Origin: a virus
Direction: 5' to 3' (one strand)
Length of the DNA: 48,272 nucleotides
Virus record (IMG/VR): IMGVR_UViG_3300030060_004007
Span: 1 to 48,272 of that record
The position numbers and the translations under genes were made by a program. Below, one piece after another: positions 22,821 through 47,981 of the stretch; position 1 is the first letter of the stretch, and every line of letters starts with the position of its first letter. The notes beneath the pieces were generated by a model that made no database searches, had not been told where the DNA came from, and saw only the letters and a list, made by a program, of their open reading frames with translations.

Positions 22821-23498
22821 TCAGTACTCCTTAACCATTGTCATTATTCCTCTGTAGACCATTTCGGGGTCTGACTTGGCAGATACGATGTATTTGAAAC
22901 ATGGAATACCCCTATCCTGTAAACGTTGCATACCGAGCCTGAATGGCTCAAAGATGGGGTGTTTATCGATGGCCCCGTTGAATTCATATTTATCTTTCCA
23001 CAAATCGTATTTATTAGCCCATACTCCTACGGCTACTGGGAAGTCCTTCTCCTTCTTCTTTTTAGATTTATTCTTATTTAATCTCCAATACTCATCACAA
23101 ATAGTATCGACTAGAAACTGCCAACCTAATTGGTTTTCTAAATTATATGCTTCATTTAAATGCCTATCATCAATCATAAAAATAATATATTTTACATTTC
23201 TATTTTTCATATCTTTTTTCCAAGCATCCCAATAATAAGTCTGTCCACCTACATCAGCCGTTTTGATAGTTCTAGAATCTTTATCTATTTTTACTACCTT
23301 TCTAGTGGCTCTTTTTAATCCAACTGTTCTATCTTTAACTACAGGTACTTCACCTCTAGTTCTTAATTGATGATGCAAAGTAGTTTTACCAACCTTGGAA
23401 GCACCATAGACTCCAAAATTTAAAGCGTGTAATCTTTGGTATAATTTTGCTGCTGCCTCTGCTGCTAATATAGAAAATCCTGTTAATAATGTAGCCAT
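22821..23498 (-). CDS. Arf/Ras-like small GTPase
   Basis: The 225-residue protein has all conserved G motifs of the small GTPase superfamily. G1 P-loop is G32-A-S-K-V-G-K38-T39; a G2 threonine lies near residue 58 (DRTVGLKRATRK); G3 is D82-V-G-G-Q86; G4 is N162-K-Y-D165; G5 is S206-A-K208. DVGGQ is the form typical of Arf/Arl and G-alpha proteins, and Gln86 corresponds to the residue that positions the hydrolytic water. The N terminus (TLLTGFSILAAEAAAKLYQR) is a hydrophobic/amphipathic helix, as used by Arf proteins for membrane contact. A lysine-rich insert (NKNKSKKKKEKD, 141-152) precedes G4. It is embedded in the structural operon, one base from the stop of a membrane protein gene. Catalysis looks intact; the role in the virus is unknown. 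Confidence 0.88.
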   Translation of the reverse strand: MATLLTGFSILAAEAAAKLYQRLHALNFGVYGASKVGKTTLHHQLRTRGEVPVVKDRTVGLKRATRKVVKIDKDSRTIKTADVGGQTYYWDAWKKDMKNRNVKYIIFMIDDRHLNEAYNLENQLGWQFLVDTICDEYWRLNKNKSKKKKEKDFPVAVGVWANKYDLWKDKYEFNGAIDKHPIFEPFRLGMQRLQDRGIPCFKYIVSAKSDPEMVYRGIMTMVKEY

Positions 23499-25896: not shown

Positions 25897-27264
25897 TCAG
25901 AAAAGGTTAGTAATCTTGCCTTGTCCCTTGAAGAAGGTACATCCAGTCTCACCCATTGTTCGGTAAAGTCCTCGGTTTCCGAGTACTCCAACACCGAATG
26001 GATTTCCGTGACTAATACCATCCTCAAAGTATTGGGTTGGTTTTAGTGTAGCGAACCACAAATGGTCTGTGTCTAGTAAGAGGATGTCAGAAAGTTTAGT
26101 TCCTGAGTATCCACCAGTTGATGGCATATCTTTTGCTGGAATTAGTGGGATATCGTAGTATGTTGCAACACGGAATCCTACTTCTGCTCCCTTTACACCC
26201 TTTACACCGTTATGGGTTGGCATTACCTCTTTAGAGTCCATGAATCGCTCTTGGCTCTGTAGAAGGTCAGAGATTGCCTGAATTGTGTCGTATCCTGTTA
26301 GCATAACTTTAGGTGCTCCACCATTCAATCGTAGGTTCTGTATTACACTGTTAATTATACTTAGTGTGAATTGACGACCAGCAGTTGCATAGCTTCCACC
26401 AAAGTTTACTTCAGCATCCAAGTAAGATGCAGCACTTCGGGTTGCTCCGTAAATGATTTTTGCATCATCGTCAGTATTTGCGTAGTTGTTTGTTCCACCG
26501 ATTGATGAAAGGTTGTGAATACCGACTGTATCTGCCAATTCTCCGAATGAGCTAACTATCTTCATTAGAGATGTGTATTGTTCACGGATTCTTCCGTTTG
26601 TTGCTGAAACATCTGCACCAAAGTCATCGTACATTTCTAGAGGCATAACTAGCATCTTAGATTGTGATTCAGCATGGAATTTACCCATGTCTTCACGGAT
26701 TAGCTTACGTAGGTCGCCAACACCGTCATCGATTTTTGCCATCTCAGAAGCCAATTCGCTGTAGTCAAACATGTGAGCTACAATCTTTGGGTTCATGTAT
26801 AGGTTAGCATACTCTGGAGCCATTGCAAGAAGAGAAGAAGAACCGAGTGCTTCGTTTTCTCCTACTCCACCAATTATATCTGCATCAGGTGCAGCAGTTC
26901 CTTGTGCAGCAGTTCCAGCAGTTGTTGATATTCCAAAAGCAGCTCCACTTCCACCTTGTGGCCTGTTTGTCATTACTCTCCATCCACTTGCTGTGTATGG
27001 CCTCTTTGGTAGAATTGAAAGTGGGTTGATTTCTTGGTTAATCATTGACCAAACTTTCTGTCCGTAAATGATATTGTAAAGGTTAGATGCACCAGTTGTA
27101 GCTGTACCGTTAAGGTTAATTGCATCTCCAGAGGAACCGGGGAAACCGCTTCCTATTGAACCAACAACTCCAGCAGCTTTCAATAGACTGTTACCTGCTA
27201 GTCCACCGAAGTTACCGTAAGTTGCGGCTTCCAAATCTTTCATTGTGTTAATGTATTTTGTCAT
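25897..27264 (-). CDS. Major capsid protein (HK97-fold)
   Basis: This 455-residue protein follows the prohead protease/scaffold gene and is the expected major capsid subunit. It has an N-terminal helical lead (YINTMKDLEAATYGNFGGLA) and a NPLSILPKRPYTASGWRV segment like the start of the E-loop/P-domain in HK97 proteins. A long helix-rich centre includes DLRKLIREDMGKFHAESQSK, and the C-terminal strands include TKLSDILLLDTDHLWFATLK. I prefer the ATG at 27264 over 27273, because AAGGAG abuts the first ATG but is well placed for the second. Arginine codons CGT/CGA and C-ending codons are clearly more common here than in neighbours, as expected for a very highly expressed gene. A cleaved N-terminal propeptide is possible. 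Confidence 0.85.
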   Translation of the reverse strand: MTKYINTMKDLEAATYGNFGGLAGNSLLKAAGVVGSIGSGFPGSSGDAINLNGTATTGASNLYNIIYGQKVWSMINQEINPLSILPKRPYTASGWRVMTNRPQGGSGAAFGISTTAGTAAQGTAAPDADIIGGVGENEALGSSSLLAMAPEYANLYMNPKIVAHMFDYSELASEMAKIDDGVGDLRKLIREDMGKFHAESQSKMLVMPLEMYDDFGADVSATNGRIREQYTSLMKIVSSFGELADTVGIHNLSSIGGTNNYANTDDDAKIIYGATRSAASYLDAEVNFGGSYATAGRQFTLSIINSVIQNLRLNGGAPKVMLTGYDTIQAISDLLQSQERFMDSKEVMPTHNGVKGVKGAEVGFRVATYYDIPLIPAKDMPSTGGYSGTKLSDILLLDTDHLWFATLKPTQYFEDGISHGNPFGVGVLGNRGLYRTMGETGCTFFKGQGKITNLF

Positions 27265-27302
27265 TCTTTTCATCTCCTTATTTTTATTTTTATTTATCTA
27301 GT

Positions 27303-28604
27303 TTAGAGTTGAGCCTCCAATCTCTCAACTAGAGCGTTAATGTCATTCCAGTCCATTTTTGCGAGTTCGTCGCTGTCTGGAAGGTTAAGTTCTGATACCG
27401 CTTCTTCTTGTTTGCGGATAACTTCTTCTTTGTTCTCATTAAGAGTAGATAGAAGGTCTGTAAATTGTTTCTTTAGTTCTGCTACTTCTGCTTTAGCATC
27501 ATAGTTAGCTTTCTCCATTTCTTCAGCCTTTGCTACCATCTCAGAATCGAATCTTGCTTGGAATTTATCTTTAATTGCACCATAAGCTGCTTTTTCTAGT
27601 TGTTCTGCCTTAAACTCTGCATAAGCTTTCTCAAGGTTTTCTGGAGAAAGGTCAAGAGTTGATTGGTCGTTAAACTTAGCCATATAGTTACTGTCCAATT
27701 GGTCAGGTGCTTCGCTTACTAAATCACCAGCTCCACCGTGTTCAATTTCTCCGGCGTCGTTGCTGTCTTTAGATTTCTGTTCCATTTCTTTATATTCCAT
27801 TGTAGAAACCTCTTCTGCTTCTGGAACATCCATTTCTTCAATCATTTCTTTTTCTTCTTCTTCTTTCACTACTTCGGTCATATTATTTGCCTCGTTGGAT
27901 ATTTCTTCCTTTTTCTCCATGTTCTTATTAAGTGTTTCCGTTAGTTTCTCCATATTATTAGAAATTTCACTATCTTTAGCCACTTCCGAGTTATCTTTTT
28001 CTAAAAGTTCGTTTAATGCATTTAATGCCTTTTCAATTTCATTCATTTCTTTTCCCTCATTTTCCATTTTTAATATGTCAAACTTTGCTTCAGGGTTAAT
28101 TCCCTTTTCACAAATTGTTACTTCATGGAGTTCTAATTTAGAGATTTCATTATAATCCCCATATTCTTTATGTCCTTTCTTTCTCTTTTCTAGGGCTTGT
28201 CCTCCTATACTAAAAGAACGAAGAGAACCATCTCTTATTTCTCTACTAACTTCCTTTGCTTTTTCTATATCTTCCCTCATTTTAATAACTACAAAGAAAC
28301 CAACATCATCAACTTCAGTTTTCCATAATCTACCAGATTTATCTCTATACTGAGGGATTACTTCACCAACTTGAACATTAGAATGGTTAGTCATTACATT
28401 TCTAAATTTACTTATTTTCATATATTTACTAACAGCTTCATCTAAAGCTCCTAATGTGATTAAATCATTCTGTTTATCTACCATTTCAATAGAAGCATAT
28501 CCTCCTATTACTAAGTCATCCGACTTAAGAATAGAAAAGGAATCATTTCTAATTGGGGAGATTGCGCCCATAATAGCAGAAGCACTCATTGAAGGGGCTT
28601 TCAT
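27303..28604 (-). CDS. Prohead protease fused to scaffold (S78-type)
   Basis: The 433-residue protein combines a capsid maturation protease (residues about 1-180) with a helical acidic scaffold (about 180-433). Protease features are GYASIEMVDKQNDLITLGAL, His74 in NVMTNHSNVQVGEVI, a serine in LRSFSIGG (Ser130/Ser132) and ELHEVTICEKGINPEAKFDI, the pattern of S78-type/XkdF-like proteases. The scaffold has coiled-coil composition with many Glu/Lys, and ends in PDSDELAKMDWNDINALVER-like sequence. That C-terminal peptide is shared with the 78-aa protein at 31313-31549, suggesting a capsid-binding tail. The gene lies immediately before the major capsid gene, the standard order. During maturation the scaffold would be cleaved and removed. 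Confidence 0.84.
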   Translation of the reverse strand: MKAPSMSASAIMGAISPIRNDSFSILKSDDLVIGGYASIEMVDKQNDLITLGALDEAVSKYMKISKFRNVMTNHSNVQVGEVIPQYRDKSGRLWKTEVDDVGFFVVIKMREDIEKAKEVSREIRDGSLRSFSIGGQALEKRKKGHKEYGDYNEISKLELHEVTICEKGINPEAKFDILKMENEGKEMNEIEKALNALNELLEKDNSEVAKDSEISNNMEKLTETLNKNMEKKEEISNEANNMTEVVKEEEEKEMIEEMDVPEAEEVSTMEYKEMEQKSKDSNDAGEIEHGGAGDLVSEAPDQLDSNYMAKFNDQSTLDLSPENLEKAYAEFKAEQLEKAAYGAIKDKFQARFDSEMVAKAEEMEKANYDAKAEVAELKKQFTDLLSTLNENKEEVIRKQEEAVSELNLPDSDELAKMDWNDINALVERLEAQL

Positions 28605-28616
28605 AAATTAACTATA

Positions 28617-31100
28617 TTAACTGTTCCTGAATTTTAAATCAGAAAACTTATCTTCTTTAATATCCCAAACACCATCATCTGTGTCTGAATCAACTGGTTT
28701 AGTTTCAATACCAGTCCAAGCTAACCAAGTATCTTTATCCTTAACTGGTATAACTCTAACATGAAATTTAGTATCAAATTTATTACCAGATAACATATAT
28801 TCGTGATATCCATCTCTTTGAACTCCTAATTCTACTTTACCTGAATCAATAAGTTTACCTTGTTTAAAATGGGTTTCTATTTGGGCAGGGAATTTACCAG
28901 ATTTACCGAATAAAGAAAATATATCTTCTTCATCTTCTATATCTATTTCCCACCCAAATAACTCATCACTTACATTAAACATTATACATAAATTATCATT
29001 ATCTTTTTTATAGATTTTAAATTCGCCTTTTCTATATTTATCGGGAGTAGAGTAATCTTTCTCTATCGTATCATCGGTGTGAAAAAAAGTATCTTTAGTT
29101 TTATCATAAGAGATATCCTGTAGTGTTTTCATCCAATTTTTTAATTTCATACCATCAGAATCAAACAAATTATTGAAAGCTGTGAAGTGTTTTTCTAACA
29201 CAAATTTTTCTATTAATTCAAAAGAAGACTCACCTGTATTTATTAAGAAATTCCTAAGTGATAATCTAAATTTTGATTTTTGGGTTTTCAACATCTCTTC
29301 TATTTCAGTCTTCCAAACATCAATATCTAGTAATGCATTTTTGGCCATTAAATTGTCCTCTTCAAAACCATAAAAAGTAAACCCGTCTAAATCTGATTTA
29401 ATAATAGCAGTAGTTTCACCATGTATAACATCAGAAATACGATACCCTTTTTCTAAAGCCTTTACATCATAATTTAATGAACGCTTTGTATCTTGCGATA
29501 ATAAATCTAATGTGATTAATTTTTCAGGTAATTCAACTTCGGGAATCTCTATAACTTTAGCAGAGAATAGTTTGTAACCACCATTCTTATCTTTCTTCAC
29601 TTCATCTATTTTCACTCTAATAATAGTACCAACTTCAACGTCTATTTTAGTATTCAATGCTTTACCTACTTCCAAATATTTTCTATCATTAATCACTTTA
29701 GTATTTTTAAATTCATCACTATCTGATAATGGTCCAGCACCTAGAGTATAAGTAAACATGTCTGATTTAGTAGTTTTCTTATCTAATACCATCATATCTA
29801 AATCTACAAATTTCTTCCACTTAATCCACTTTGGATTTTTCTTAGTCCCTATAAAATAAGTTGATGTAATGTCCTTTATTACTACCCCCTCAGCAGTAGG
29901 TATTTCCATTATTTCCTTTGAATACTCTTCTACTTCTTTAATAGAATCAGCATAACGAGTATCTTTCTTAGAAGGGAATGCTAGTTTCTCATCTGAATGG
30001 GTTGAATAATTATTGAAGAGTATAGCCACCCTTTCGGATAATTCTTCTTCATGTAATTCTCTGTCTTCATGTCTCATAATATCAAAGACATGCGCTCTTA
30101 ATTCTGAATCTTCTGCTTCCTTTCCTTTGAATATTCTAGCAACAACTTCAGCCCTATGTAATGGTTCTTCTTTCTGGAAAAGCATCAACTCAGCATCTAA
30201 TATACAATCACCAAAATGTTTAGCTCTCATTATTTTCTTCTGTTCAGGACATTTATCTGTAATGTCTTTACCATTAAAAGAGTAAATCTTAATTTGTTCA
30301 TCTATTTTATGAATCTGTATCCTCATACCATCATATTTTTCTTGAACTATCCACTTACCAGTAAAACCTCTTAACTCATTTAAATCATCTATCTCAAATA
30401 TCCTATACATTGGTTTGTTAGGTACTAAAAAATGAACATCAGATTTCTGTGCTTTTTTTAAACTAACAATATTGTCCCATTTAGACTGACCGTGATGAGA
30501 AACATAAATTTCCTCTAATAGTTTTCTAGCAGCTTTATATTTACCACCTATTCTTTTACTATCTTTACCATCAGCATAATGTTCTACAATAAAATCGATA
30601 ACATCTTTTTCAGCTAAATTGAGCCCTTTGTAACCTTCACTTATGGTATCTGGTTCTAAATCTTTAATTTCCCAAGCCTTATCACTCAACGATTTATCAT
30701 GTATTCTTATTGCCCAGTGTATAAATTTAGCAAAGAGAGAAGGATTGGACATTAAATTATCAAATGTTTCTTCTCCAAACTTTATACTAAAGGGGTCCTT
30801 TACCATATCAGAAGAATATCTTAATTCCTTTATTTGAGAATAAATCTCTCTTGCAATATCTGATTCTACATCTTCAGCTCCATCAGAAAATAAATCATCC
30901 TCAGATATCTTCGATTTTATTTCTTTACTAAATTCATCAATATCATCCCACTGTTCACGTAAAACCTTTATCTCAGATGACCATTTCTTGCCGTATTGTC
31001 TAGGGTCTGATAAAGCAGAAAGATATGACATTCGCATTTTTTCAAAAAATTGAATGACCCTGAGAGTTATTGGGGTATCTTTCGTAATAGAGACAGGCAC
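28617..31100 (-). CDS. ATP-dependent DNA ligase with C-terminal extension
   Basis: The 827-residue protein carries the nucleotidyltransferase motifs of ATP-dependent DNA ligases: motif I EKYDGMR with catalytic Lys255, motif III LDAEL (301-305), motif IV EGVVIKD (404-410) and motif V KWIKWKK (424-430). An OB-like region follows to about 530 (VGTIIRVKIDEVKKDKNGGY). Residues 1-230 form a helical N-terminal domain, likely DNA-binding. The extra C-terminal part includes a beta-rich block at about 670-790 (FKIYKKDNDNLCIMFNVSDE, YHEYMLSGNKFDTKFHVRVI) that faintly recalls the LigD phosphoesterase barrel but lacks its histidines; that comparison is speculative. Ligases normally sit with replication genes; this one lies between small head genes and the prohead protease. 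Nick sealing of packaged or ejected DNA is a possible role. Confidence 0.85.
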   Translation of the reverse strand: MPVSITKDTPITLRVIQFFEKMRMSYLSALSDPRQYGKKWSSEIKVLREQWDDIDEFSKEIKSKISEDDLFSDGAEDVESDIAREIYSQIKELRYSSDMVKDPFSIKFGEETFDNLMSNPSLFAKFIHWAIRIHDKSLSDKAWEIKDLEPDTISEGYKGLNLAEKDVIDFIVEHYADGKDSKRIGGKYKAARKLLEEIYVSHHGQSKWDNIVSLKKAQKSDVHFLVPNKPMYRIFEIDDLNELRGFTGKWIVQEKYDGMRIQIHKIDEQIKIYSFNGKDITDKCPEQKKIMRAKHFGDCILDAELMLFQKEEPLHRAEVVARIFKGKEAEDSELRAHVFDIMRHEDRELHEEELSERVAILFNNYSTHSDEKLAFPSKKDTRYADSIKEVEEYSKEIMEIPTAEGVVIKDITSTYFIGTKKNPKWIKWKKFVDLDMMVLDKKTTKSDMFTYTLGAGPLSDSDEFKNTKVINDRKYLEVGKALNTKIDVEVGTIIRVKIDEVKKDKNGGYKLFSAKVIEIPEVELPEKLITLDLLSQDTKRSLNYDVKALEKGYRISDVIHGETTAIIKSDLDGFTFYGFEEDNLMAKNALLDIDVWKTEIEEMLKTQKSKFRLSLRNFLINTGESSFELIEKFVLEKHFTAFNNLFDSDGMKLKNWMKTLQDISYDKTKDTFFHTDDTIEKDYSTPDKYRKGEFKIYKKDNDNLCIMFNVSDELFGWEIDIEDEEDIFSLFGKSGKFPAQIETHFKQGKLIDSGKVELGVQRDGYHEYMLSGNKFDTKFHVRVIPVKDKDTWLAWTGIETKPVDSDTDDGVWDIKEDKFSDLKFRNS

Positions 31101-31110
31101 ACGAAATCAC

Positions 31111-31311
31111 CTAGTCTTCTTTTTTAGAAATATTACCACTTGCGTATTCTCTCTTTCCTTCCTTAACGGTAGTACCTTCACCATTAGCAAGATGTCCAGT
31201 TCCTAATACGGGTGTGGTATCTTTCTGACCCTTTGTTCTTTCAATTTTAACTTCTTCGCCAATGACGAATTTCATCAGTTTTTCTACATACTCTGTTCTT
31301 TCATTTGTCAT
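31111..31311 (-). CDS. Small hypothetical charged protein
   Basis: The start at ATG 31311 is chosen because GGTGGTGA lies just before it, covering the GTG at 31323. The 66-residue product starts MTNERTEYVEKLMKFVIGEE and has a likely disordered Gly/Thr/Lys-rich end (GHLANGEGTTVKEGKREYAS). It follows the 78-aa scaffold-tail-like gene by one base and precedes the DNA ligase. No recognisable family, cysteine motif or membrane segment; probably a minor head-assembly protein by location. Confidence 0.5.
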   Translation of the reverse strand: MTNERTEYVEKLMKFVIGEEVKIERTKGQKDTTPVLGTGHLANGEGTTVKEGKREYASGNISKKED

Positions 31312-31312
31312 A

Positions 31313-31549
31313 TCATTCACCACCTAATCTACTAACTAAATCATTTATATCGTCCCAACTCATCTTAGAAATAGTATCTGAATCAGGCACATCAGTTCTT
31401 TTACCCATTGCTGGTACAGGGGAATCAGTCGTAACAATACCTGATTTCATTAAGATATTATCGTTATTATATACTGTCTTTTCTATTTTCTTTATTCTGC
31501 CTACTAATTCTTTTAGTAGGTCTACCATTTCATTATTTTCTTCTGTCAT
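31313..31549 (-). CDS. Small protein with scaffold-like C-terminal peptide
   Basis: The 78-residue protein has an N-terminal helix with coiled-coil character (NNEMVDLLKELVGRIKKIEK) and ends in VPDSDTISKMSWDDINDLVS followed by RLGGE. The last 25 or so residues match the end of the protease-scaffold protein: PDSD, three residues, then KM[DS]W[ND]DIN[AD]LVxRL. In tailed phages the scaffold C terminus commonly contacts the capsid protein, so this small protein may dock at the same site. It could be an auxiliary scaffold or an assembly regulator. It overlaps the upstream gene by an ATGA. Confidence 0.6.
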   Translation of the reverse strand: MTEENNEMVDLLKELVGRIKKIEKTVYNNDNILMKSGIVTTDSPVPAMGKRTDVPDSDTISKMSWDDINDLVSRLGGE

Positions 31550-31887
31550 TTTTCTTCCTCTCCTAAACCACCTGAACTTTTTGGATATACTACTTTTCTA
31601 ACTTGTCGGTATAGTTGCTCATACTGCTTACGTAGTTTGCTCGCAGTGGCAACCATATCAATATTCTGCTCACCAATGGATTTCATTTTCTTATCTAGTT
31701 TAGAGTCACCCTTAACTAAATCAAGAGATTGCATCATTTCAATTAAATCCCCTAATTTAGTAAAGTCCTGACCAAAATATTCTGATGGTTCAGCAGCTTG
31801 AAGTGTTTTCTTAAGTTTCTTTTTCTTTTTAGAATCTAAAGCATTAAGAATTTTATTCTCTTCTTTTAGTACATTTTCCCAAGTCAT
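31546..31887 (-). CDS. Helical protein with N-terminal MxWxxxLK tag
   Basis: This 113-residue protein opens MTWENVLKEENKILNALDSK, one of the recurring M-x-W-x-x-[IV]-L-K N termini. The rest is helical and charged, with KKKKLKKTLQAAEPSEYFGQ, a middle helix (TKLGDLIEMMQSLDLVKGDS) and a coiled-coil-like end (ATASKLRKQYEQLYRQVRKV). It sits between the coiled-coil protein and the scaffold-tail-like protein in the portal-to-protease interval. No enzymatic motif is present. By the tag it would belong to the proposed set of co-packaged or prohead-associated proteins. Confidence 0.58.
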   Translation of the reverse strand: MTWENVLKEENKILNALDSKKKKKLKKTLQAAEPSEYFGQDFTKLGDLIEMMQSLDLVKGDSKLDKKMKSIGEQNIDMVATASKLRKQYEQLYRQVRKVVYPKSSGGLGEEEK

Positions 31888-33413: not shown

Positions 33414-35072
33414 TCATCCAACTCTCCTTTCTGTTCTTCTATCTACGTTATTATTAGCGGCTTCCTTGGGTAAACCTTTAGCCCGATTAGGTGGACCTAC
33501 ACTCATCTTAGGTTTAGGACTTTCTCCTTTTACTTCCGCAGGTTTACCTGCTTCAGCCATTGTTGGTCTAGTTCCAGCCTCCATCATTTGTCCTAATTGT
33601 GATTGGTCGATATCTGTTCCAGCATAAGGGTCTGATTCAAATACTTCTTCTTCCTTGGATTCTCCACCTTCTGTATCTGGTTTAGGTTCAGGTTTAGAAT
33701 AAATGAATTTACCATTTTCATCCATATCAACTTCAAATCCGAGATTCTTAATTTGACCAGCGATATTAACTTCAATTTCTCTTTTTCTCATAGTTGCTAT
33801 TTCATCTTCTTCTTCAGAAGGTGGTAGTACTATATCCCAATCAGTTACACCAAATTGTCTAACAATAAAAGGGAATACGTATTTATTCCAAACGTTTTGA
33901 GCCATTTCTACTGCTCTATTAGTAACAAGTATTTGCATCCCTTCGTTATTCAACCCACCACTAGTAGAGTTATCTGCCATGAAGATTTTACTTACACCAT
34001 AGAATGCAGCAACTCTATCTCTCAAGTCTTCTTTAACCGAAATATAATCCATTTCTTTTAATGAATCCATGAACTTAACCCACTCAACAGAACCCCTTCC
34101 GTTCTCTGCTTCTATTCCCATAACAGGAATAAAGTGGGCATCTTGCTCCATCTTTTCTTTAACTCCTCTCCAAAATGTTCTCATTGATTCAATATTCCTT
34201 GTTTGAACAGCAAGAAGACCCTTTGGCATTCTAGCCTTAGTATATGCTTGATTGATATAATTCTCCATAGCAAGTAAAGTAGTCAAATGATTCCACATTG
34301 TTACTACAGGACTTGTTCCATAAAGGCGGCTAGGAGAATATTTACTAAAGTGAAGAACTTCTCCTTTGATAAAATGCTGCTCAGAACCGTGAGCTCTATT
34401 TATGTAATGGACTGGATATAAATCACCATTACATTCTCCGCACTTCTCATGTGGTGAGACTACTGATACATGTCGATGGTGAATACAAGTAAAGGATTCA
34501 CTTCCTTTATTACCGTCTTCATCACAAACAATTGCCATAGAAACAGGGTCAGCACGATACATTTGTTTAATGCGGTGCGCTCTGATATTACCATTACCAT
34601 CAATAAAATATTCTTTAACTAATACAAGATAAGCGTCATCCATAATATTCAGGTCGTCCTCTAGTTCCTTTAGAACATCAATGAACATTTGTTCAGCATC
34701 ATTAACATAAGAAGATTGCATGAATTTATCAGCATATTTTTTCTGCATTTTATTTGGTTTATGTAAATTTAATGACTGGCACTCAGAACACTCTTTAACA
34801 AAATTATCATGTTCATTACCACAATCATGACATTTAACTTCAAACCTAGGGCTCCATTGATATCCTCTTCTGAAAATTTCATTCTTTAATTGTGTAATAC
34901 AGGTCCTTAAAATAACTGAACTTTCAGCTACATGGTAAACTAAAGGGCCAGTCATCATTAAAGGATGATGTCTTTCTTGTATTCCCATTTGATAGACTTC
35001 TCTATCAGCAGGGACAGGGGTAGTTTTTCTAAAGAAATTAGATATAGAAAACCTCCTTTTTTCTTCAGTCAT
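33414..35072 (-). CDS. Portal protein with Cys-rich inserts
   Basis: The 552-residue protein forms the dodecameric portal, by location after terminase and by internal sequence. Evidence includes HFIKGEVLHFSKYSPSRLYG and SPVVTMWNHLTTLLAMENYI, a stem-helix region of the kind typical of portals, then MPKGLLAVQT and VAAFYGVSKIFMADNSTSGG and MQILVTNRAVEMAQNVWNKY, all familiar from HK97/SPP1-type portals. Two probable zinc sites are inserted: C81-x2-C84...C95-x2-C98 (CHDCGNEHDNFVKECSEC) and C196-x2-H199...C211-x2-C214 (CIHHRHVSVVSPHEKCGEC). The C terminus is Pro/Gly/Glu rich and probably disordered. The start overlaps the stop of the LAGLIDADG-type gene by ATGA. Confidence 0.82.
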   Translation of the reverse strand: MTEEKRRFSISNFFRKTTPVPADREVYQMGIQERHHPLMMTGPLVYHVAESSVILRTCITQLKNEIFRRGYQWSPRFEVKCHDCGNEHDNFVKECSECQSLNLHKPNKMQKKYADKFMQSSYVNDAEQMFIDVLKELEDDLNIMDDAYLVLVKEYFIDGNGNIRAHRIKQMYRADPVSMAIVCDEDGNKGSESFTCIHHRHVSVVSPHEKCGECNGDLYPVHYINRAHGSEQHFIKGEVLHFSKYSPSRLYGTSPVVTMWNHLTTLLAMENYINQAYTKARMPKGLLAVQTRNIESMRTFWRGVKEKMEQDAHFIPVMGIEAENGRGSVEWVKFMDSLKEMDYISVKEDLRDRVAAFYGVSKIFMADNSTSGGLNNEGMQILVTNRAVEMAQNVWNKYVFPFIVRQFGVTDWDIVLPPSEEEDEIATMRKREIEVNIAGQIKNLGFEVDMDENGKFIYSKPEPKPDTEGGESKEEEVFESDPYAGTDIDQSQLGQMMEAGTRPTMAEAGKPAEVKGESPKPKMSVGPPNRAKGLPKEAANNNVDRRTERRVG

Positions 35073-36571
35073 TCTTCTTCAGCCTCCTGTGGTCCAACAT
35101 GTTCAAATAAATAATCAGAGGCATCATCTAAACTAGACCACTCCTCTTCACTTAATTCATATCCTTCAATTATACCTTCTAATTCATCAATAGCGTCATT
35201 TAAATCTTCTTTCACTATAACACTACCAATTTGTTCTAATTCATCCATAACACGCATTTTACTATTCTCCTTATATTTGTGAATCTGTTCTACATCTATA
35301 TTGTCTTTAGAAAAATCATAATTAATATGGTCAGCATGATTCGCCCATTTCATTAATTTAAAAAGCTCTTTCATTCTTCCTTTTGCCCAATCTTGCTTTT
35401 TATGGTTTTTCTTTATTCTAATTAATTCAGTAAGAATATCTGCATTATCACCCTTCATTCTGAAATAAGGACGACATTTTTCTAATAATTTAGTTATATC
35501 ATTTTGAGAATAAAAATTTAGCCGCTGAACAGCCCTTGTAGCTTGGGGTGATTTTTGGTCAAGGTGTAATTTACCAATACCTAATTCCTTATGTAATTCA
35601 GTAACAAACGCTTTACCTCTATTACCTGTAGCTATAATGCCTATTCTCGGATTATGGTTTCTATCCATTGTAATGTACCCATCAGAATCAATGAATGCAG
35701 CAGTATAAGCATAGAGGTCTTTCTTTATACCCATAGGTAATTTATAGTATTCCCCATCTACATTACTAATATTCATCTTATCTGCAACTTTACAAATTAT
35801 TTGAGGGGAGGCCCTTCTATGTAATTTATCAGGTAATCGGTCATATATCTGCCTAGCAGATATACCTTGGTTCTCACATACACTTTTTAAAACGAAATCA
35901 TCTAATTGTTTAGAAATATTATTCTTTATTACTTGATTAGGAATACCAGTTACAATTTTTCTAAAAGACCTTTTAGCATTAGTCATAGATTTAGTCAAAG
36001 AGGAATAATTACTATCATAATTGTCGCCTCTATGTAGCTCTGCTTCCCAATATTTACAAAGAGATTCTATAACTTCCCTCCTAGTTTTACCATCTTTAAT
36101 TGAATGTAATTTCTTTAAATCTGATTCAGTATATCTCATTTGTCTAAGAGGGGTTTCATATGGAGCAAGCCAATAAATAGATTTTATACAGTCACCAAGA
36201 TGACTAGAATAAGCCACAATTAAATTCTCTATAGCCTTAGTGAATATTTCCTTTTCTTCCCCCTTTAGGGTTCGTCTATGTTTCTTAAGTTCCTTGACTA
36301 TGGTTGGAATTGTTTTATCGTTAATTTTGTACTCTTTTGGGAAAGAAGAAAGAGTAGATTTAGCTTCCGTAACATTAATGTTATATTTTTTAGATACACT
36401 CATAGCCACTTCATAATCATCCATTATGGGTATAGAAGATATCCAATTTTTAATAGTAGAAAGTTCAGACATAATGTCTTCTTCTTCATCCTTTAGCTGG
36501 GCATATTCTTCTATATTTTTAGCCTGTTCTCTAAGATTATCTCCTTGTTCACCTTTAGAAATTAAGCCCAA
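35069..36571 (-). CDS. LAGLIDADG-type protein between terminase and portal
   Basis: The product is about 500 residues. Near residues 290-305 it has LYAYTAAFIDSDGYITMDRN, a single LAGLIDADG-type motif, followed by the alpha-beta body of such endonucleases (IGIIATGNRGKAFVTELHKE, QRLNFYSQNDITKLLEKCRP). One motif implies a homodimer. A winged-helix-like segment precedes it (DDFVLKSVCENQGISARQIY). The first 220 residues are helical and unfamiliar, and the C terminus is very acidic. I favour the TTG start at 36571, five bases after GGAGGTGG; the GTG at 36580 overlaps that site. The ORF overlaps the terminase end by 17 bases and the portal start by 4, so it is expressed with them. It may be a mobile homing endonuclease or one recruited for packaging-related cutting. 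Confidence 0.65.
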   Translation of the reverse strand: MGLISKGEQGDNLREQAKNIEEYAQLKDEEEDIMSELSTIKNWISSIPIMDDYEVAMSVSKKYNINVTEAKSTLSSFPKEYKINDKTIPTIVKELKKHRRTLKGEEKEIFTKAIENLIVAYSSHLGDCIKSIYWLAPYETPLRQMRYTESDLKKLHSIKDGKTRREVIESLCKYWEAELHRGDNYDSNYSSLTKSMTNAKRSFRKIVTGIPNQVIKNNISKQLDDFVLKSVCENQGISARQIYDRLPDKLHRRASPQIICKVADKMNISNVDGEYYKLPMGIKKDLYAYTAAFIDSDGYITMDRNHNPRIGIIATGNRGKAFVTELHKELGIGKLHLDQKSPQATRAVQRLNFYSQNDITKLLEKCRPYFRMKGDNADILTELIRIKKNHKKQDWAKGRMKELFKLMKWANHADHINYDFSKDNIDVEQIHKYKENSKMRVMDELEQIGSVIVKEDLNDAIDELEGIIEGYELSEEEWSSLDDASDYLFEHVGPQEAEEE

Positions 36572-37973
36572 ATAAACCACCTCCCGCTATCACTGGCTGT
36601 GGCTCCTTGTTATCAAAGATTTCCATGTCGTCCAACAAAATAAATGATTCTAACATATCATGAGTTGCAGAATTAGCAATAGCAAGCCCCATCACTAAAT
36701 CATCATGTGCTCCTACACCTTCAAACTTACCGTTATCGGTTATACTAAACATAGATAATTCTTCAACCACATTATCGGTAACTTTTCTTGATTCATCGTT
36801 ACCTCTAGGAAAAATAATTTTGCCGTTCTCAATATTCATCTGCAAATTTAAGATGATTTCTTCTTTCTTACGGCGGGTCATAGTAACATCTCTAATATTC
36901 AAATCAGTTTCATTACGCAACTCTTGAGTAAAAGATTTAGCAAAAGTATTAGTTTCAAAGTAAATAGCATCTGGCTCAAACAATTTACCAATCATTTTTA
37001 TTTTATTGATGTTTTCTCTAAATTCAACATTTTTCTGTCTATCAACATATATTATTCTTTTATTTCTATCCTCATCTACCTCTAAAACAATAATAACATT
37101 ATAGTCACCATCCGTTGAGATAGCAGGGTCAACGCCAACATAATATGTATATCCTGCATCCTTTCTATGTCTTAATCTAAGAATGTCACTTTTACCTAAT
37201 TGTTTACAATTGTCTATGTGCTCCTGCCCAAATAAGGCAGTTCCTGTAGATATAGGAATACAAAGATATTCTCTAGTAAACTTAAGAGAACCAACCTCTT
37301 GCTTCCTCTGCATTAAATTATCATAACTCCACCTTTCAGGCCAAAGTGGTTCATTGTTTTGATTAAGACAAGGATAAGTTCTAACGGTGTAAACTTTAGC
37401 ATACTCATCACTAGCTAATTGTGCAAAAATATCAGTATAAGTAAAGGGAGTTCCAATCATTCTAAGGGTTGCTGTATGGTGAAGTGTGGGAATCATGTCA
37501 CCAAAAAACCAATCAGTGACTTTCTTAATAGCAGTAAGACTGAATTCTTTCAAAGGGTCGTCAATAATTATTTCTTGAGGATGAAGCCCACGAATTTGAG
37601 AACCAACTGAACGCTCAAGGATAGAATTACCATTAGTGAGAGTAATGTTACCAACAGCCCATCCCCTTGATGGGCGAAAATGAGCAATAGTTTCATTGTT
37701 GAATATTTTATCAATTTCTCTCATGTGAACCATTGTCTGTTTATGGTTAGAAGAAATGTATAGCATCTGATATGGGGCAGGCTGAAAGCATAACTGCCAT
37801 ACAGCCCAAGAATGCATAAACACGGATTTACCGTGGTCACGACTACAGATTACAACAGTTCTATCAGTAGATTTCATTAAATCTAACCACTCTTGATGAA
37901 AAGAAGTAAAATCAAATCCTAGAACTTCAGTAAAAAAATATGGAAAGGAGTTTTTGGACATCTCCAAGTCCAT
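36555..37973 (-). CDS. terL: Terminase large subunit
   Basis: The 472-residue protein is the packaging motor ATPase/nuclease. It contains Walker A C43-SRDHGKS-50, Walker B EIIIDDP (134-140), a coupling segment MIGTPF (172-177), and the RNase H-like nuclease acidic residues Asp282 (YYVGVDPAIS), Glu340 (AIYFETNTF) and Asp424/425 (AHDDLVMGLA). The usual start signature SFPYFFTEVLGFDFTSFHQE is present. No intein interrupts the ATPase motifs. The ATG at 37973 lacks a ribosome site, while a CTG at 38003, ten codons upstream and in frame, sits five bases after GAGGGTGAT and would add LLEDLDFSKQ-like residues. The gene lies between small tagged proteins and the LAGLIDADG-type ORF. Confidence 0.92.
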   Translation of the reverse strand: MDLEMSKNSFPYFFTEVLGFDFTSFHQEWLDLMKSTDRTVVICSRDHGKSVFMHSWAVWQLCFQPAPYQMLYISSNHKQTMVHMREIDKIFNNETIAHFRPSRGWAVGNITLTNGNSILERSVGSQIRGLHPQEIIIDDPLKEFSLTAIKKVTDWFFGDMIPTLHHTATLRMIGTPFTYTDIFAQLASDEYAKVYTVRTYPCLNQNNEPLWPERWSYDNLMQRKQEVGSLKFTREYLCIPISTGTALFGQEHIDNCKQLGKSDILRLRHRKDAGYTYYVGVDPAISTDGDYNVIIVLEVDEDRNKRIIYVDRQKNVEFRENINKIKMIGKLFEPDAIYFETNTFAKSFTQELRNETDLNIRDVTMTRRKKEEIILNLQMNIENGKIIFPRGNDESRKVTDNVVEELSMFSITDNGKFEGVGAHDDLVMGLAIANSATHDMLESFILLDDMEIFDNKEPQPVIAGGGLFGLNF

Positions 37974-38538: not shown

Positions 38539-38762
38539 TATTTCACCTTGGTAGTCTCTTTACTTAAATGTCTAAGTGCCTTATCGTTTAATTCGTATAG
38601 ATGAAATAATTCTTTACTCTCACCTTCAACGTGCTCTTTACCAGTCATTAAAGTCCCATCAGGGTGTTTATGTGTAGGTCCAACCCATTGAACCGGTTTA
38701 CCATTTTCAAGATAAAAATGTCTTTCTCCTTTTCCTTTTCTCAGTATATCTTCCCAATTCAT
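38538..38762 (-). CDS. Small N-tagged protein
   Basis: The 74-residue product begins MNWEDILRKGKGERHFYLEN, another copy of the recurring tag. The rest, KPVQWVGPTHKHPDGTLMTG and KELFHLYELNDKALRHLS, looks like a small His-containing domain with a C-terminal helix. It overlaps the next gene by a single base and the upstream gene by 4 bases, so it is coupled to both. Function unknown; a small internal virion protein is the working guess from the tag. Confidence 0.55.
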   Translation of the reverse strand: MNWEDILRKGKGERHFYLENGKPVQWVGPTHKHPDGTLMTGKEHVEGESKELFHLYELNDKALRHLSKETTKVK

Positions 38763-41426: not shown

Positions 41427-43459
41427 TAAACCGCCTCAATTAATTTTTTATTTATTAACTTAACAATAATGTTATTTTTCCCACCAATGTACTTACTATA
41501 ATTTTTAGCTATCTCTTCTACCTTCTCTTTAATATCATCAAATGACTTCTTTCTTATAGAAATGATAGCTTCATCTAACATTTTTACAAATCTTTTTATT
41601 TCATTAGTAGTGTCTTCTGAAGAAAAATCACCCTTAGATATATTCTTTATTAAAGAGAATAAGTTACCGTCGTAATAACGAGTAGATAACAACACAATAC
41701 CATTAAGTATTCTCTCAGGGGTTAATTCTAATTTAAAATTAACTTCTCCCAACAAAATTTCTACAAAATCTTTCTGTTCATCATTAATCAAAGTGTAGAA
41801 TAACAAAGCTGTATCTTTCTCCACCCCTTCTTGGAACTCATCTAATTCTTGCAAATCTTGAACCTGAACTTGCGGTAAATTATTTTTAAAATCATCTAAA
41901 CTTTCAGTATCTGTCGTTTCTCCTTCTGCCTTCCTCTTGTCTCTTATTTTACGATTTTCACGTCTAAGTTTTAATTTAACTGAATTAAAATTAAAGAATT
42001 CTTTAACCTCATCTACTAAAGAATTAGGTCTTACAATAAAAATATCTTTACCTTCGTATTTTTGTGGGGTATATTCAATATCACGTAAACTAGAAACTAT
42101 CTCTTTAAGTTCAGGGTCCTTCATTATAGCCAAAGCGATTTTTGAATCTGGATTCTCAATAAAGGCTTCTATGACTTCTTTCTCTGACGTAGAAACAGAT
42201 TGGTTTAATTTTTTAGCAACATTATAGTTACGCTTAATATTAATATATTCCCCGCTTAACTCACCATTAAGTAAATCTTTTATTTTACTTTTATTTTCAT
42301 TGAATGAACCTTTGATGTTTTTAACATATAATGGGTAACTGGGGTCATCTCTCTTATCGTAAATTTCTCTAACATAATAATCTTTTAATGCTTCATCATT
42401 AAGGTAAACATTTTCTTTCACATCATCTAAGAAATCAGATATTAGATTATCATCATAGTCTTTATATGTGTCACTTAATAAAGGACTCAATAATTTAGCT
42501 AGTTGTTGATATTCATTATAATCTGTACCTGTTGGGACTCCTTTTGGTAGAACCCCTTTGGGAAAATTAAATCTACGTATCAATGTAAGATACTTCCTAG
42601 CATCTTCAGTGCTAAAACCATCTTTGATTTTATATTTCATAGCCTCAATTTTTTCATCATCTTGACCGCTAAACATAACCCAAAGTGGGTGACTTCTAAT
42701 ATCAATATTTTTTGGTTCAATCGATTCATCTTTCTTTACAGCTTCCTCATAAATTACTGATTTATCAGGACTCTTCTCATACTTTACCCAAGATTTTGCT
42801 CCTTTCTTTTCATAACCTAATGAACCCAAATCAGAAGTGGTGGTTATAGTAATTGCTTTTATTTTATCATATTCTTCTTCAACTAAATCGTTCTTAATAT
42901 TAGGGAATTCAGGATTAGAACTACCGTAATTTTGTCTTAAAAAGGGATAAAATTTTTGGATTACATCCCTAGATAAACTCATTAATTTTTTATAAATTTC
43001 TTTTTGTTCTTCGTCAGTTTTTTCATAAAAATTATCTAATAGTTGCATAAGTTTTTCTTCAGTCATTGACGAGCTAACTGTTGGTTTGCGAGTTGTTTTT
43101 GTTTCCTGCATTTTTAATTTTAAAACAGGTAAAGTTTCTTTGACTATTTCTTTAAGTCTCTTTTCTATTTCACCCATCTTATTTTTATCATTCAAATGTA
43201 GCTGTCCTATCTCTGGCTCTCTATTGATACTACCATAATCATCTTTATATTTTTGAAGAAACTCAATAGTTTTAGTAATGCCTTTATTTTCAAAATTACC
43301 ATTTTTTATAGCAGTAATAAAAACATTAGAATTGCCCTCAGAGGATAGGTGGTTTGCCCATAATGTGAGGTTATTACTAGGAAGTTTCACATTTTCATTT
43401 TTAGTTATTAAACGCATATCAGGGTATCTAGTTTTCTTTAATACCTCTGTCCAATGCAT
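41426..43459 (-). CDS. Large N-tagged helical protein (677 aa)
   Basis: This 677-residue protein begins MHWTEVLKKTRYPDMRLITK, a clear copy of the recurring tag on a large protein. The remainder is highly charged and helical (EEKLMQLLDNFYEKTDEEQK, VKLKLRRENRKIRDKRKAEG, FVKMLDEAIISIRKKSFDDI). No known domain is recognisable. The tag on a protein of this size argues against the motif being part of a small conserved domain. Possible roles are internal core protein or packaged effector. The neighbouring 763-aa gene is similar in composition and may be its partner. Confidence 0.55.
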   Translation of the reverse strand: MHWTEVLKKTRYPDMRLITKNENVKLPSNNLTLWANHLSSEGNSNVFITAIKNGNFENKGITKTIEFLQKYKDDYGSINREPEIGQLHLNDKNKMGEIEKRLKEIVKETLPVLKLKMQETKTTRKPTVSSSMTEEKLMQLLDNFYEKTDEEQKEIYKKLMSLSRDVIQKFYPFLRQNYGSSNPEFPNIKNDLVEEEYDKIKAITITTTSDLGSLGYEKKGAKSWVKYEKSPDKSVIYEEAVKKDESIEPKNIDIRSHPLWVMFSGQDDEKIEAMKYKIKDGFSTEDARKYLTLIRRFNFPKGVLPKGVPTGTDYNEYQQLAKLLSPLLSDTYKDYDDNLISDFLDDVKENVYLNDEALKDYYVREIYDKRDDPSYPLYVKNIKGSFNENKSKIKDLLNGELSGEYINIKRNYNVAKKLNQSVSTSEKEVIEAFIENPDSKIALAIMKDPELKEIVSSLRDIEYTPQKYEGKDIFIVRPNSLVDEVKEFFNFNSVKLKLRRENRKIRDKRKAEGETTDTESLDDFKNNLPQVQVQDLQELDEFQEGVEKDTALLFYTLINDEQKDFVEILLGEVNFKLELTPERILNGIVLLSTRYYDGNLFSLIKNISKGDFSSEDTTNEIKRFVKMLDEAIISIRKKSFDDIKEKVEEIAKNYSKYIGGKNNIIVKLINKKLIEAV

Positions 43460-44061: not shown

Positions 44062-44315
44062 TCTAACTCCTCCTTTGGATGAAACTTCAATGTGACCTTT
44101 TCTGCATCTTTTTTAATAGATTCCCCATCAACTAGAACTTCTATTGGATATGGTTTATGTTCATTAAACCAGTATTCAACCTCATAACCTCCATTTTTCA
44201 ATAATTTAACAAGAAGACCTCTTTCGTAGTCTTTATCTTCCGCCTGAAGAACCATCTCCTTTCCTCTAGGTAAAACTAAATCTACTTCTTCTTTCAATAT
44301 ATTTTCCCAACTCAT
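44058..44315 (-). CDS. Small N-tagged beta protein
   Basis: The 85-residue product begins MSWENILKEEVDLVLPRGKE, the best consensus form of the tag. After the tag there is a compact beta-rich domain (MVLQAEDKDYERGLLVKLLK, GYEVEYWFNEHKPYPIEVLV, KKDAEKVTLKFHPKEELE). This body has no obvious relation to other tagged proteins, supporting the idea that the N-terminal peptide is a transferable module. Role unknown. Confidence 0.55.
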   Translation of the reverse strand: MSWENILKEEVDLVLPRGKEMVLQAEDKDYERGLLVKLLKNGGYEVEYWFNEHKPYPIEVLVDGESIKKDAEKVTLKFHPKEELE

Positions 44316-44325
44316 TGTAATCCCC

Positions 44326-44574
44326 CTAAATTGACGCCTCTAATTTTTCTTTAAATTCTTCTAATGTTTCTTCTATTTTACTAATAGTGGGTTTTTGTAT
44401 AGTTGTAATCAGACTTCTTGCTTGTTCCATAACCAAGCCCGTCTCTTTATTCATCTTAATGGCGGCTTCTTCTATATCTTCATACAGCCTTTCTAGTAGT
44501 TTTTCCACCTTTTCAATTTGGCTGAGATAGAAGGAATATTGTTCTAATCCCTTCAATATATTTTCCCAACCCAT
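44326..44574 (-). CDS. Small N-tagged coiled-coil protein
   Basis: I start this gene at ATG 44574, seven bases after AGGAGT; the longer start at 44595 would place 7 residues before the tag and overlap the preceding gene. The 82-residue product begins MGWENILKGLEQYSFYLSQI and continues as one or two long helices (LLERLYEDIEEAAIKMNKET, KIEETLEEFKEKLEASI). The body is a simple coiled coil and could oligomerise. Function unknown. Confidence 0.55.
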   Translation of the reverse strand: MGWENILKGLEQYSFYLSQIEKVEKLLERLYEDIEEAAIKMNKETGLVMEQARSLITTIQKPTISKIEETLEEFKEKLEASI

Positions 44575-44585
44575 TATAATTACTC

Positions 44586-44786
44586 CTAATTCCATGCTGA
44601 TGAAGTAGGAGTTTTTTCTCCACTAATATATTCTATTCTTTTATCAAAAGTTCCTACTTTTTTTAATTCTGCTGCAATTGAATCTTTAGTATATGGGCCT
44701 CTTCCATCAACATGGCCCATAATTTTCTCTTCACTAAGCCAATTGATTACGGGGCCTTCTTCTTTTAACACACTTTTCCAACTCAT
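44586..44786 (-). CDS. Small N-tagged protein with GPV extension
   Basis: The 66-residue product begins MSWKSVLKEEGPVINWLSEE, the tag followed by GPV. The same tag-plus-GPV arrangement occurs internally in the 97-aa protein at 47037 (WFNMLKEGGPVTTG). The remainder (GRGPYTKDSIAAELKKVGTF) looks like a short helix-turn segment. It overlaps the preceding gene by ATGA. Function unknown. Confidence 0.52.
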   Translation of the reverse strand: MSWKSVLKEEGPVINWLSEEKIMGHVDGRGPYTKDSIAAELKKVGTFDKRIEYISGEKTPTSSAWN

Positions 44787-45445: not shown

Positions 45446-45756
45446 CATTCATCACCCGTAGGATAAATTACATTTAAGTCCTTTCCGAACTCTTCATTCC
45501 AAGTTCTAATCCAAGCTTTCAGTTGTTCTCCCTCGGGACTATAACCTAATATTTTCCCTCTAGGGGTAGTAATTAATTCTAAATGTTCTTTATCATTGAA
45601 GCCTTCTCCTCCAATCTCTGCATCATCTCTTGCTTTTTGAGACTGCCAAGCCCAACTTCTATACGTTAAAAAATCAATGAGTTCTTCTGGTTCAACATCT
45701 ACTTCTCTACCATCAGAAGTCTTACCTTCCAATTTTAGAATACTTTCCCAACTCAT
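45445..45756 (-). CDS. Small N-tagged protein
   Basis: The 103-residue product begins MSWESILKLEGKTSDGREVD, a clear tag, then a body with VEPEELIDFLTYRSWAWQSQ and HLELITTPRGKILGYSPEGE. It ends in an acidic DLNVIYPTGDE whose codons include the ribosome site of the downstream zinc-finger gene. The body looks like a small alpha/beta fold without a recognisable active site. Function unknown. Confidence 0.55.
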   Translation of the reverse strand: MSWESILKLEGKTSDGREVDVEPEELIDFLTYRSWAWQSQKARDDAEIGGEGFNDKEHLELITTPRGKILGYSPEGEQLKAWIRTWNEEFGKDLNVIYPTGDE

Positions 45757-47334: not shown

Positions 47335-47622
47335 TCACCACAACTTCTTACACGCTAAACACTTAGGCGTAGTTATTCTACCTTTACACTGGTCACACTT
47401 ATGCCTCGCTCTAAAACTCGCTCTCCTTTTAGGATTTTTATGAGTACCACCACCACGGTTCTTACCCTTCCCTTTCCAATTACCCATCCCTTTTGCACCC
47501 GCATGAATCTTTTTACCCTCATGCGTTAGCATCATAATTTTCTTGCCAGCCCTATCACTAGGATATACACGACCTACACGCATATCCTTCTTATCTTTCT
47601 TTAGGACTTCTTCCCAACTCAT
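47335..47622 (-). CDS. N-tagged DUF5754-like basic protein
   Basis: The start is placed at ATG 47622, five bases after GTGAT, giving 95 aa beginning MSWEEVLKKDKKDMRVGRVY; the GTG at 47631 overlaps the preceding gene. After the tag, the sequence PSDRAGKKIMMLTHEGKKIH and HKNPKRRASFRARHKC follows the pattern I know from DUF5754-type proteins of marine phages and large DNA viruses. The C terminus has C76-x2-C79 and C88-x2-C91, a likely zinc ribbon. High Lys/Arg/Gly content suggests nucleic-acid binding. The fusion of the tag to a known phage domain supports the tag being a separate module. The family has no established function. Confidence 0.7.
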   Translation of the reverse strand: MSWEEVLKKDKKDMRVGRVYPSDRAGKKIMMLTHEGKKIHAGAKGMGNWKGKGKNRGGGTHKNPKRRASFRARHKCDQCKGRITTPKCLACKKLW

Positions 47623-47627
47623 GTAAA

Positions 47628-47981
47628 TCACTTTCTTGGTTTATGAGTATAAATATCTCCATCACTGTGCATGAAAATTACTTTCTTTCTTTTCATAGCA
47701 TCTAAGACTCTTTTCAAATCTTTAGGAGGACAAATTGCTTTTAGGTTCTTCATACCTAATGCACCTCCTTCTTTTTTGATTTCAGCAAGGATTTCCTTTT
47801 CAATGTCAGAATCGCTCTTTACTGCTTTCTTTTCATCTCTAAGCATCTTGAAATCCTTTCCACTTATTTTTCCATCACCATCAGCATCAATTCTTTTTTG
47901 ATTACCAGTTAGTGTCTTTTCTTCATAATCTGTCTTTTCATGCGTTCCACAATGTATTTTCAATATATCTTGCCATGTCAT
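47628..47981 (-). CDS. N-tagged EF-hand protein
   Basis: The 117-residue product begins MTWQDILKIHCGTHEKTDYE. Residues 32-43 read DADGDGKISGKD, a canonical EF-hand calcium loop with Asp at positions 1, 3, 5 and 12, followed by a helix (FKMLRDEKKAVKS). A single loop of this form also occurs in dockerin-type proteins. The C-terminal part (LGMKNLKAICPPKDLKRVLD, AMKRKKVIFMHSDGDIYTHK) looks like a small winged-helix. Its start shares bases with the stop of the upstream Cys-rich gene (TAATG). Calcium binding is predicted from the loop alone. Confidence 0.65.
   Translation of the reverse strand: MTWQDILKIHCGTHEKTDYEEKTLTGNQKRIDADGDGKISGKDFKMLRDEKKAVKSDSDIEKEILAEIKKEGGALGMKNLKAICPPKDLKRVLDAMKRKKVIFMHSDGDIYTHKPRK

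Follow-up and report, generated by a model that had tools for sequence, protein, structure and literature searches.

The window analysed here – the whole stretch of 48,272 nucleotides, positions 1 to 48,272 of the IMG/VR virus record IMGVR_UViG_3300030060_004007 – corresponds to the late operon of a tailed archaeal virus resembling magroviruses, an operon that runs along the minus strand, where the window's large genes sit. Our subject is a short C-terminal peptide common to two of its proteins: a protease-scaffold of 433 amino acids (27303–28604, minus strand) and a coiled-coil protein of 78 amino acids (31313–31549, minus strand), the auxiliary scaffold-like product of a conserved core gene situated between the portal gene and a ligase-like gene. 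A partly similar N-terminal tag, found on other proteins of the window, is weighed alongside it.

The protease-scaffold joins an N-terminal maturation protease to a coiled-coil scaffold. Its S78 protease domain (residues 31–179; 28068–28514, minus strand) matches Pfam Peptidase_S78 (E = 1.3e-10) and the PHROG head maturation protease (6e-15), Foldseek returns prohead proteases, and the structural model places helices at residues 187–227 and 321–405. The tail itself, residues 409–433 (PDSDELAKMDWNDINALVERLEAQL; 27306–27380, minus strand), has its core, MDWNDI, at 27339–27356. In the AlphaFold2 model it is preceded by the coiled coil and then by a disordered linker, and it consists of a helix (411–416), a turn and a second helix (419–432), the block having a pLDDT (predicted local distance difference test score) of about 75–88. 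In some relatives (L010, L026, L028, L045 and L071–L073) the scaffold reaches ~510–540 amino acids, against the usual ~430, with the extra sequence behind the protease domain.

The family of the 78-residue protein has a simple layout, in which a coiled coil (LLKELVgRIKxLExxVYnxDNLLMKSG) is followed by a Pro-rich linker and then by the tail, here residues 55–78 (PDSDTISKMSWDDINDLVSRLGGE; 31316–31387, minus strand), with the core MSWDDI at 31346–31363. Over the stretch shared with the scaffold, 14 of 21 residues are identical. The two C-terminal peptides are as the preliminary description quoted them, except that a few more residues (EAQL, GGE) come after the quoted part. When the scaffold was searched against the window's own record, the small protein was the sole second match, at precisely this stretch (residues 406–430, 56% identity, E = 2.9e-4).

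Conservation and pairing of the two tails

Among the first set of 80 relatives, all 77 scaffolds with complete ends carry M.W within their last 25 residues (77/77), and the tail also closes nearly all further magrovirus and sister-clade scaffold genes whose end lies in the sequence. The conserved core can be written M-x-W-x-[DE]-[IVL], with a second hydrophobic pair at positions 9–10 and with the PDSD motif specific to a clade. W419 is invariant in 52 sequences, in a C-terminal half of the scaffold that has few other invariant residues.

The small protein is equally persistent, a homologue lying upstream of the scaffold in 95/95 of the loci that extend at least 7 kb in that direction. Its end fits the tail pattern in 88 of these 95; the other seven were recognised by homology and have variants such as KSWGELH or MSFDEM. 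Across 29 homologues, with identities down to 16%, the sole invariant columns are L15, G37, M63 and W65, the last two of which belong to the tail. Retention reaches into a sister clade (L217–L224, L230, L235, L243, L244, L247, L249, L259, L263, L266, L269, L271, L273, L279 and L281–L283), whose scaffolds are ~36% identical, yet whose scaffold and small protein both keep the tail – in L281, for example, as MSWDEVHNLA and MSWDDIHDLA, respectively.

In the GenBank phage collection, the relatives of the scaffold that were found are haloarchaeal viruses only, connected through the protease domain. HVTV-1 and HCTV-1 (Druskaviridae) resemble the magroviruses in their homologous S78 domain (~29–32% identity) and in the gene order protease–capsid protein; unlike them, they have scaffolds that end in ...GPAAQQLYD(L), and neither the Trp tail, the small tail protein nor the tags were detected in these haloviruses. 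A different short motif is repeated in adjacent head-region genes of haloviruses L083 (3174–7569) and L084 (4474–8106), as YVDSPDEAPEGVQVQQG and GGYFYY.

A survey of 2016 distinct late-strand genes confined the tail to the scaffold and small-protein families, with no third family. A scaffold tail and a small tail from one genome also resemble each other more closely than tails paired across genomes: the own-genome similarity of 19.0 compares with 16.97 ± 0.61 after shuffling inside clades defined on the S78 domain at a cut of 0.3 (0/3000), and with 18.0 ± 0.44 at a cut of 0.2 (52/3000). In one group (L014, L016, L017, L258 and L277), W-x-E-L-H is found in the scaffold tail and the small tail alike. 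A chance origin of the paired tails was rejected in view of the match within the record, the 77 scaffolds, the 95 loci and the restriction to two families among 2016 genes; judged by their sequences, the two tails are more than chance. The proposal of a conserved docking-type peptide shared by the scaffold and the small protein, with its closer likeness within genomes, thereby finds support.

A proposed docking role for the tail and its parallels in other viruses

We lean, if only somewhat, towards an explanation in which the shared peptide would serve as a C-terminal docking plug, in which a turn at M-[SDE] links a short helix to another that opens with the nearly invariant Trp. By analogy with the C terminus of the herpesvirus scaffold, this plug would bind the major capsid protein on its inner face during prohead assembly, and it would anchor the coiled-coil scaffold to the shell until that scaffold is destroyed or set free by the S78 protease. 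Its carriers would be the protease-scaffold, a predicted protease-free scaffold started at an internal ATG and the separate coiled-coil protein of 75–130 amino acids, which may occupy the same sites jointly with the others or in competition with them, for instance in the role of an auxiliary scaffold. Within this scheme we infer which partner is bound, what the plug copies do, that the internal start is translated and that the tag drives loading.

In herpesviruses, scaffold C termini bind the capsid protein, and the protease-scaffold and the nested scaffold share that tail (PMC12474303). The magrovirus system resembles UL26/UL26.5 in having a scaffold with a serine protease at its N terminus, in a start within the gene that gives, or in magroviruses is predicted to give, a shorter scaffold, and in a C-terminal tail common to both products. 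The differences are that the magrovirus protease matches Pfam S78, that magroviruses add a third, separately encoded tail carrier, and that binding of the major capsid protein, established for the herpesvirus tail, is what we infer for the magrovirus one.

The shorter scaffold of the window is predicted from a ribosome-binding site and ATG located behind the protease domain (28044–28058, minus strand; GAGGG at 28054–28058 and ATG, for M187, at 28044–28046), which would give a nested product of 247 amino acids (27303–28046, minus strand); M187 is the first residue of the model helix 187–227. An in-frame ATG preceded by a Shine–Dalgarno (SD) sequence occurs behind the protease domain in 107 of 117 distinct scaffold genes, against 44.7 expected with synonymous codons. 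The SD variants (AGGTG, AGGAG or similar) stand in differing codon phases, and the sister clade has an SD as well. The pattern predicts a nested, protease-free scaffold and strengthens the herpesvirus analogy; use of the internal start would bring the number of products with this plug to three.

Phage lambda provides a further parallel in gpC/gpNu3, a protease gene with a nested in-frame scaffold, the arrangement also predicted for magroviruses. Unlike the magrovirus enzyme, gpC is not known to belong to the S78 proteases, and no separate small protein bearing the same tail is known from lambda. Contacts of lambda Nu3 with C and with E have been described (PMC3224144).

Several observations weigh against this docking scheme. 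The partial correlation of the two tails is 0.16 once S78 distance is removed, so much of their match reflects shared descent. Where scaffold tails read MSWxEAH (L228, L248, L252–L254 and L264), position 6 of the small tail is I or L, so these clades show no joint change of the two tails; in the small proteins of L051 and L278, moreover, the tail Trp is replaced by F. The small protein is too short for a full scaffold, the partner of the tail could be the portal or another region of the scaffold, and the richness of the region in A and G already leads one to expect an internal SD in 45/117 genes. A reading that dispenses with docking altogether would make the common tail a mere relic of duplication or gene fusion, which would have been easy given that the two genes lie ~3 kb apart in one operon. 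We regard it as very improbable, as homologues of the small protein, with identities down to 16%, have conserved no part of it better than the tail and as both genes keep the tail across the sister clade.

N-terminal tags and their likeness to the tail

About a dozen proteins of the window begin with a tag of the form M-[STN]-W-x-x-[IV]-[LI]-K, and the first 80 loci together contain 126 distinct tags. Tags on the minus strand of the window include MTWENVLK (31864–31887), which opens a protein of 113 amino acids encoded just upstream of the small tail protein, MNWEDILR (38739–38762), MHWTEVLK (43436–43459), at the start of a protein of 677 amino acids, MSWENILK (44292–44315), MGWENILK (44551–44574), MSWKSVLK (44763–44786), MSWESILK (45733–45756), MSWEEVLK (47599–47622) and MTWQDILK (47958–47981).

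An alignment of 51 tagged proteins yields the consensus MxWxxILK, the remainder being unconserved, and Pfam and PHROGs place these proteins mostly among those of unknown function, with weak matches to EF-hand/dockerin, DUF5754 and DUF5872. Position 7 is L in 102 and position 8 is K in 116 of the 126 distinct tags, behind which no residue is conserved. The family of the 113-residue protein (31546–31887 in the window), for which a fold search gave no significant match, has an invariant W3 in 37 sequences; in some of its clades the tag is split (MTWDYYGEGEDFILK), as if seven residues had been inserted between W-D and I-L-K. As to whether the tag moves to the new N terminus of fused genes, the picture is mixed, with two fusions tagged and others untagged. 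Neither tag nor tail strings were found in the literature searched.

T4 supplies an analogy: its internal head proteins IPII and IPIII have in common a short N-terminal capsid-targeting peptide of about 10 amino acids (PMC9958956). The magrovirus tag is likewise a short N-terminal peptide common to otherwise unrelated proteins; it differs in its sequence and in the larger number of tagged proteins per genome. On this analogy, the tags are probably a separate address signal, with a helix start led by Trp that partly resembles that of the tail, and would load late proteins into the prohead. That they instead act elsewhere in late infection – at the host membrane, the nucleoid or in translation – seems to us unlikely, though it would suit the lack of conservation past position 8, which leaves no protease site visible. 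Set against it is the confinement of the tags to the scaffold strand (62/62 matches in ten records; 34/34 in three fully read genomes, where 38–52% of predicted genes are on the opposite strand), a restriction that argues for late expression, not for packaging.

The preliminary description had likened the tag to the scaffold tail and suggested that both are read by the same docking site. The likeness exists and is short: M, S, W, D/N and I are common to the two, and the L7–K8 of the tag is unmatched, positions 7 and 8 of the tails being mostly H/N/E/D and K/N/A/D. Tags, in turn, are without the tails' hydrophobic pair at positions 9–10. Within a locus, the tag profile puts the scaffold tail 2nd (median) among ~4900 internal windows (8th without the Met), but it also ranks just 2nd among the 49 windows with a Trp (4th without the Met), so its high rank is mostly owed to the Trp. 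Tag–tail similarity within a genome is 5.07, compared with 4.83 ± 0.13 after shuffling (149/5000), relatedness not being controlled. AlphaFold2 models of tag and tail alike begin a helix at the Trp, which directly follows S/T/D and has D/E/N two positions further on. Such an arrangement is a pattern of helix N-capping, which alone could give much of the likeness.

It appears improbable to us that the N-terminal tag binds the pocket of the scaffold tail, so that tagged proteins would enter the prohead by imitating the scaffold. This mimicry would account for the common M-[ST]-W-x-[DN]-I, for the rank of the tail among all windows, for the helix predicted to start at Trp in both and for the slight excess of tag–tail similarity within genomes; it is consistent, too, with the presence of the tail at every tagged locus with the scaffold end in the sequence, the refuting case named in the preliminary description, tags beside a scaffold without the motif, not having been seen. 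It is at odds with the tail's modest standing among Trp windows, with the mismatches at L7–K8 and at the 9–10 pair, and with the indifference of the tags to changes in the tail. In the group with W-x-E-L-H tails, the tags stay MSW/MTW-x-x-I/V-L/I/V-K, and in the clades with A6 in the scaffold tail they still have I/V6 and K8. In six sister-clade records of 29–79 kb, moreover, no N-terminal tag was found, against 62 matches in ten magrovirus records and a single match of the reversed pattern, used as a control, over all of them; nor did another recurrent N-terminal motif stand out in the sister clade, which retains both tails. The tails are therefore independent of the tags. The suggestion that the tag docks at the scaffold-tail site thus fails to find support, and an extension of docking to the tag is possible, not favoured by the evidence.

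Evenly poised, in our judgement, is the view that tag and tail have converged on a helix N-cap – a capping box S/T/D-x-x-D/E with hydrophobic M...I – that includes a Trp, and that the tails of scaffold and small protein genuinely form one module, with the tag binding something else, such as the scaffold core. The helix that opens at Trp right after S/T/D in both models, the modest likeness beyond the Trp and the one tag family whose insertion-split tag is unlike any tail all speak for convergence; against it, N-capping does not require that two short signals in a single virus each conserve a Trp at an identical offset. A bolder scheme, which we consider rather improbable, would have one prohead pocket read a Trp-led helix code at the C terminus of the scaffold and auxiliary scaffold and at the N terminus of the dozen or so variable cargo proteins of each genome; if it were true, cargo loading would have arisen from copies of the plug with which the scaffold itself docks.

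Taken with the docking plug that we prefer for the tails, three features – a tail shared by proteins from two separate genes, a nested scaffold that is predicted, and the tags – give a concrete, testable scheme of head assembly. The scheme has parallels in herpesviruses and lambda and suggests a way for cargo to enter an archaeal virus head. Magroviruses, known from metagenomes alone, count among the most abundant viruses infecting archaea of the surface ocean.

The surrounding late module

The remaining landmarks of the late operon are the terminase (36555–37973), the portal (33414–35072), the major capsid protein (25897–27273; Pfam SU10_MCP, 5e-7; PHROG major head protein, 3e-24) and, towards the low end of the window, the tail genes, all on the minus strand. 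No solved structure was found by sequence for the capsid protein. The gene content expected of Magrovirales – terminase, portal, S78 protease and capsid protein among the late genes, and a replication module on the opposite strand – was found in the genes of the window, a 48-kb fragment, taken together with those of close relatives of 86–95 kb, where genomes of ~90–110 kb are expected; the placement is by gene content, without a formal phylogeny with named members. The longest relatives, of 86–95 kb, are marine viral contigs in which the late and other modules are oppositely oriented, as described for magroviruses of Poseidoniales (PMC12999244; PMC10160649). A scan of genome contigs gave just three matches (L085–L087), all in one metagenome-assembled genome labelled 'Maricaulis sp.' (NZMJ01), and these magrovirus-like contigs are probably contaminants there.

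The head module of the window contains an ATP-dependent DNA ligase domain (28617–31100; Pfam, 2e-28), located between scaffold and small protein. The same position is occupied in the sister clade by a giant protein of 1860–2390 amino acids and in haloviruses by a 'zeta toxin' gene, and three genomes have a second ligase-like gene, of ~505 amino acids, on the opposite strand. A protein of 503 amino acids is encoded between terminase and portal (35069–36580), is present in many relatives and includes a stretch (AYTAAFIDSDGYI) with a by-eye resemblance to a LAGLIDADG-type domain. Inside the structural module, finally, lies a Ras/Arf-like small GTPase (22821–23498; Pfam, 1.5e-4), which has 61–88% identity in relatives.

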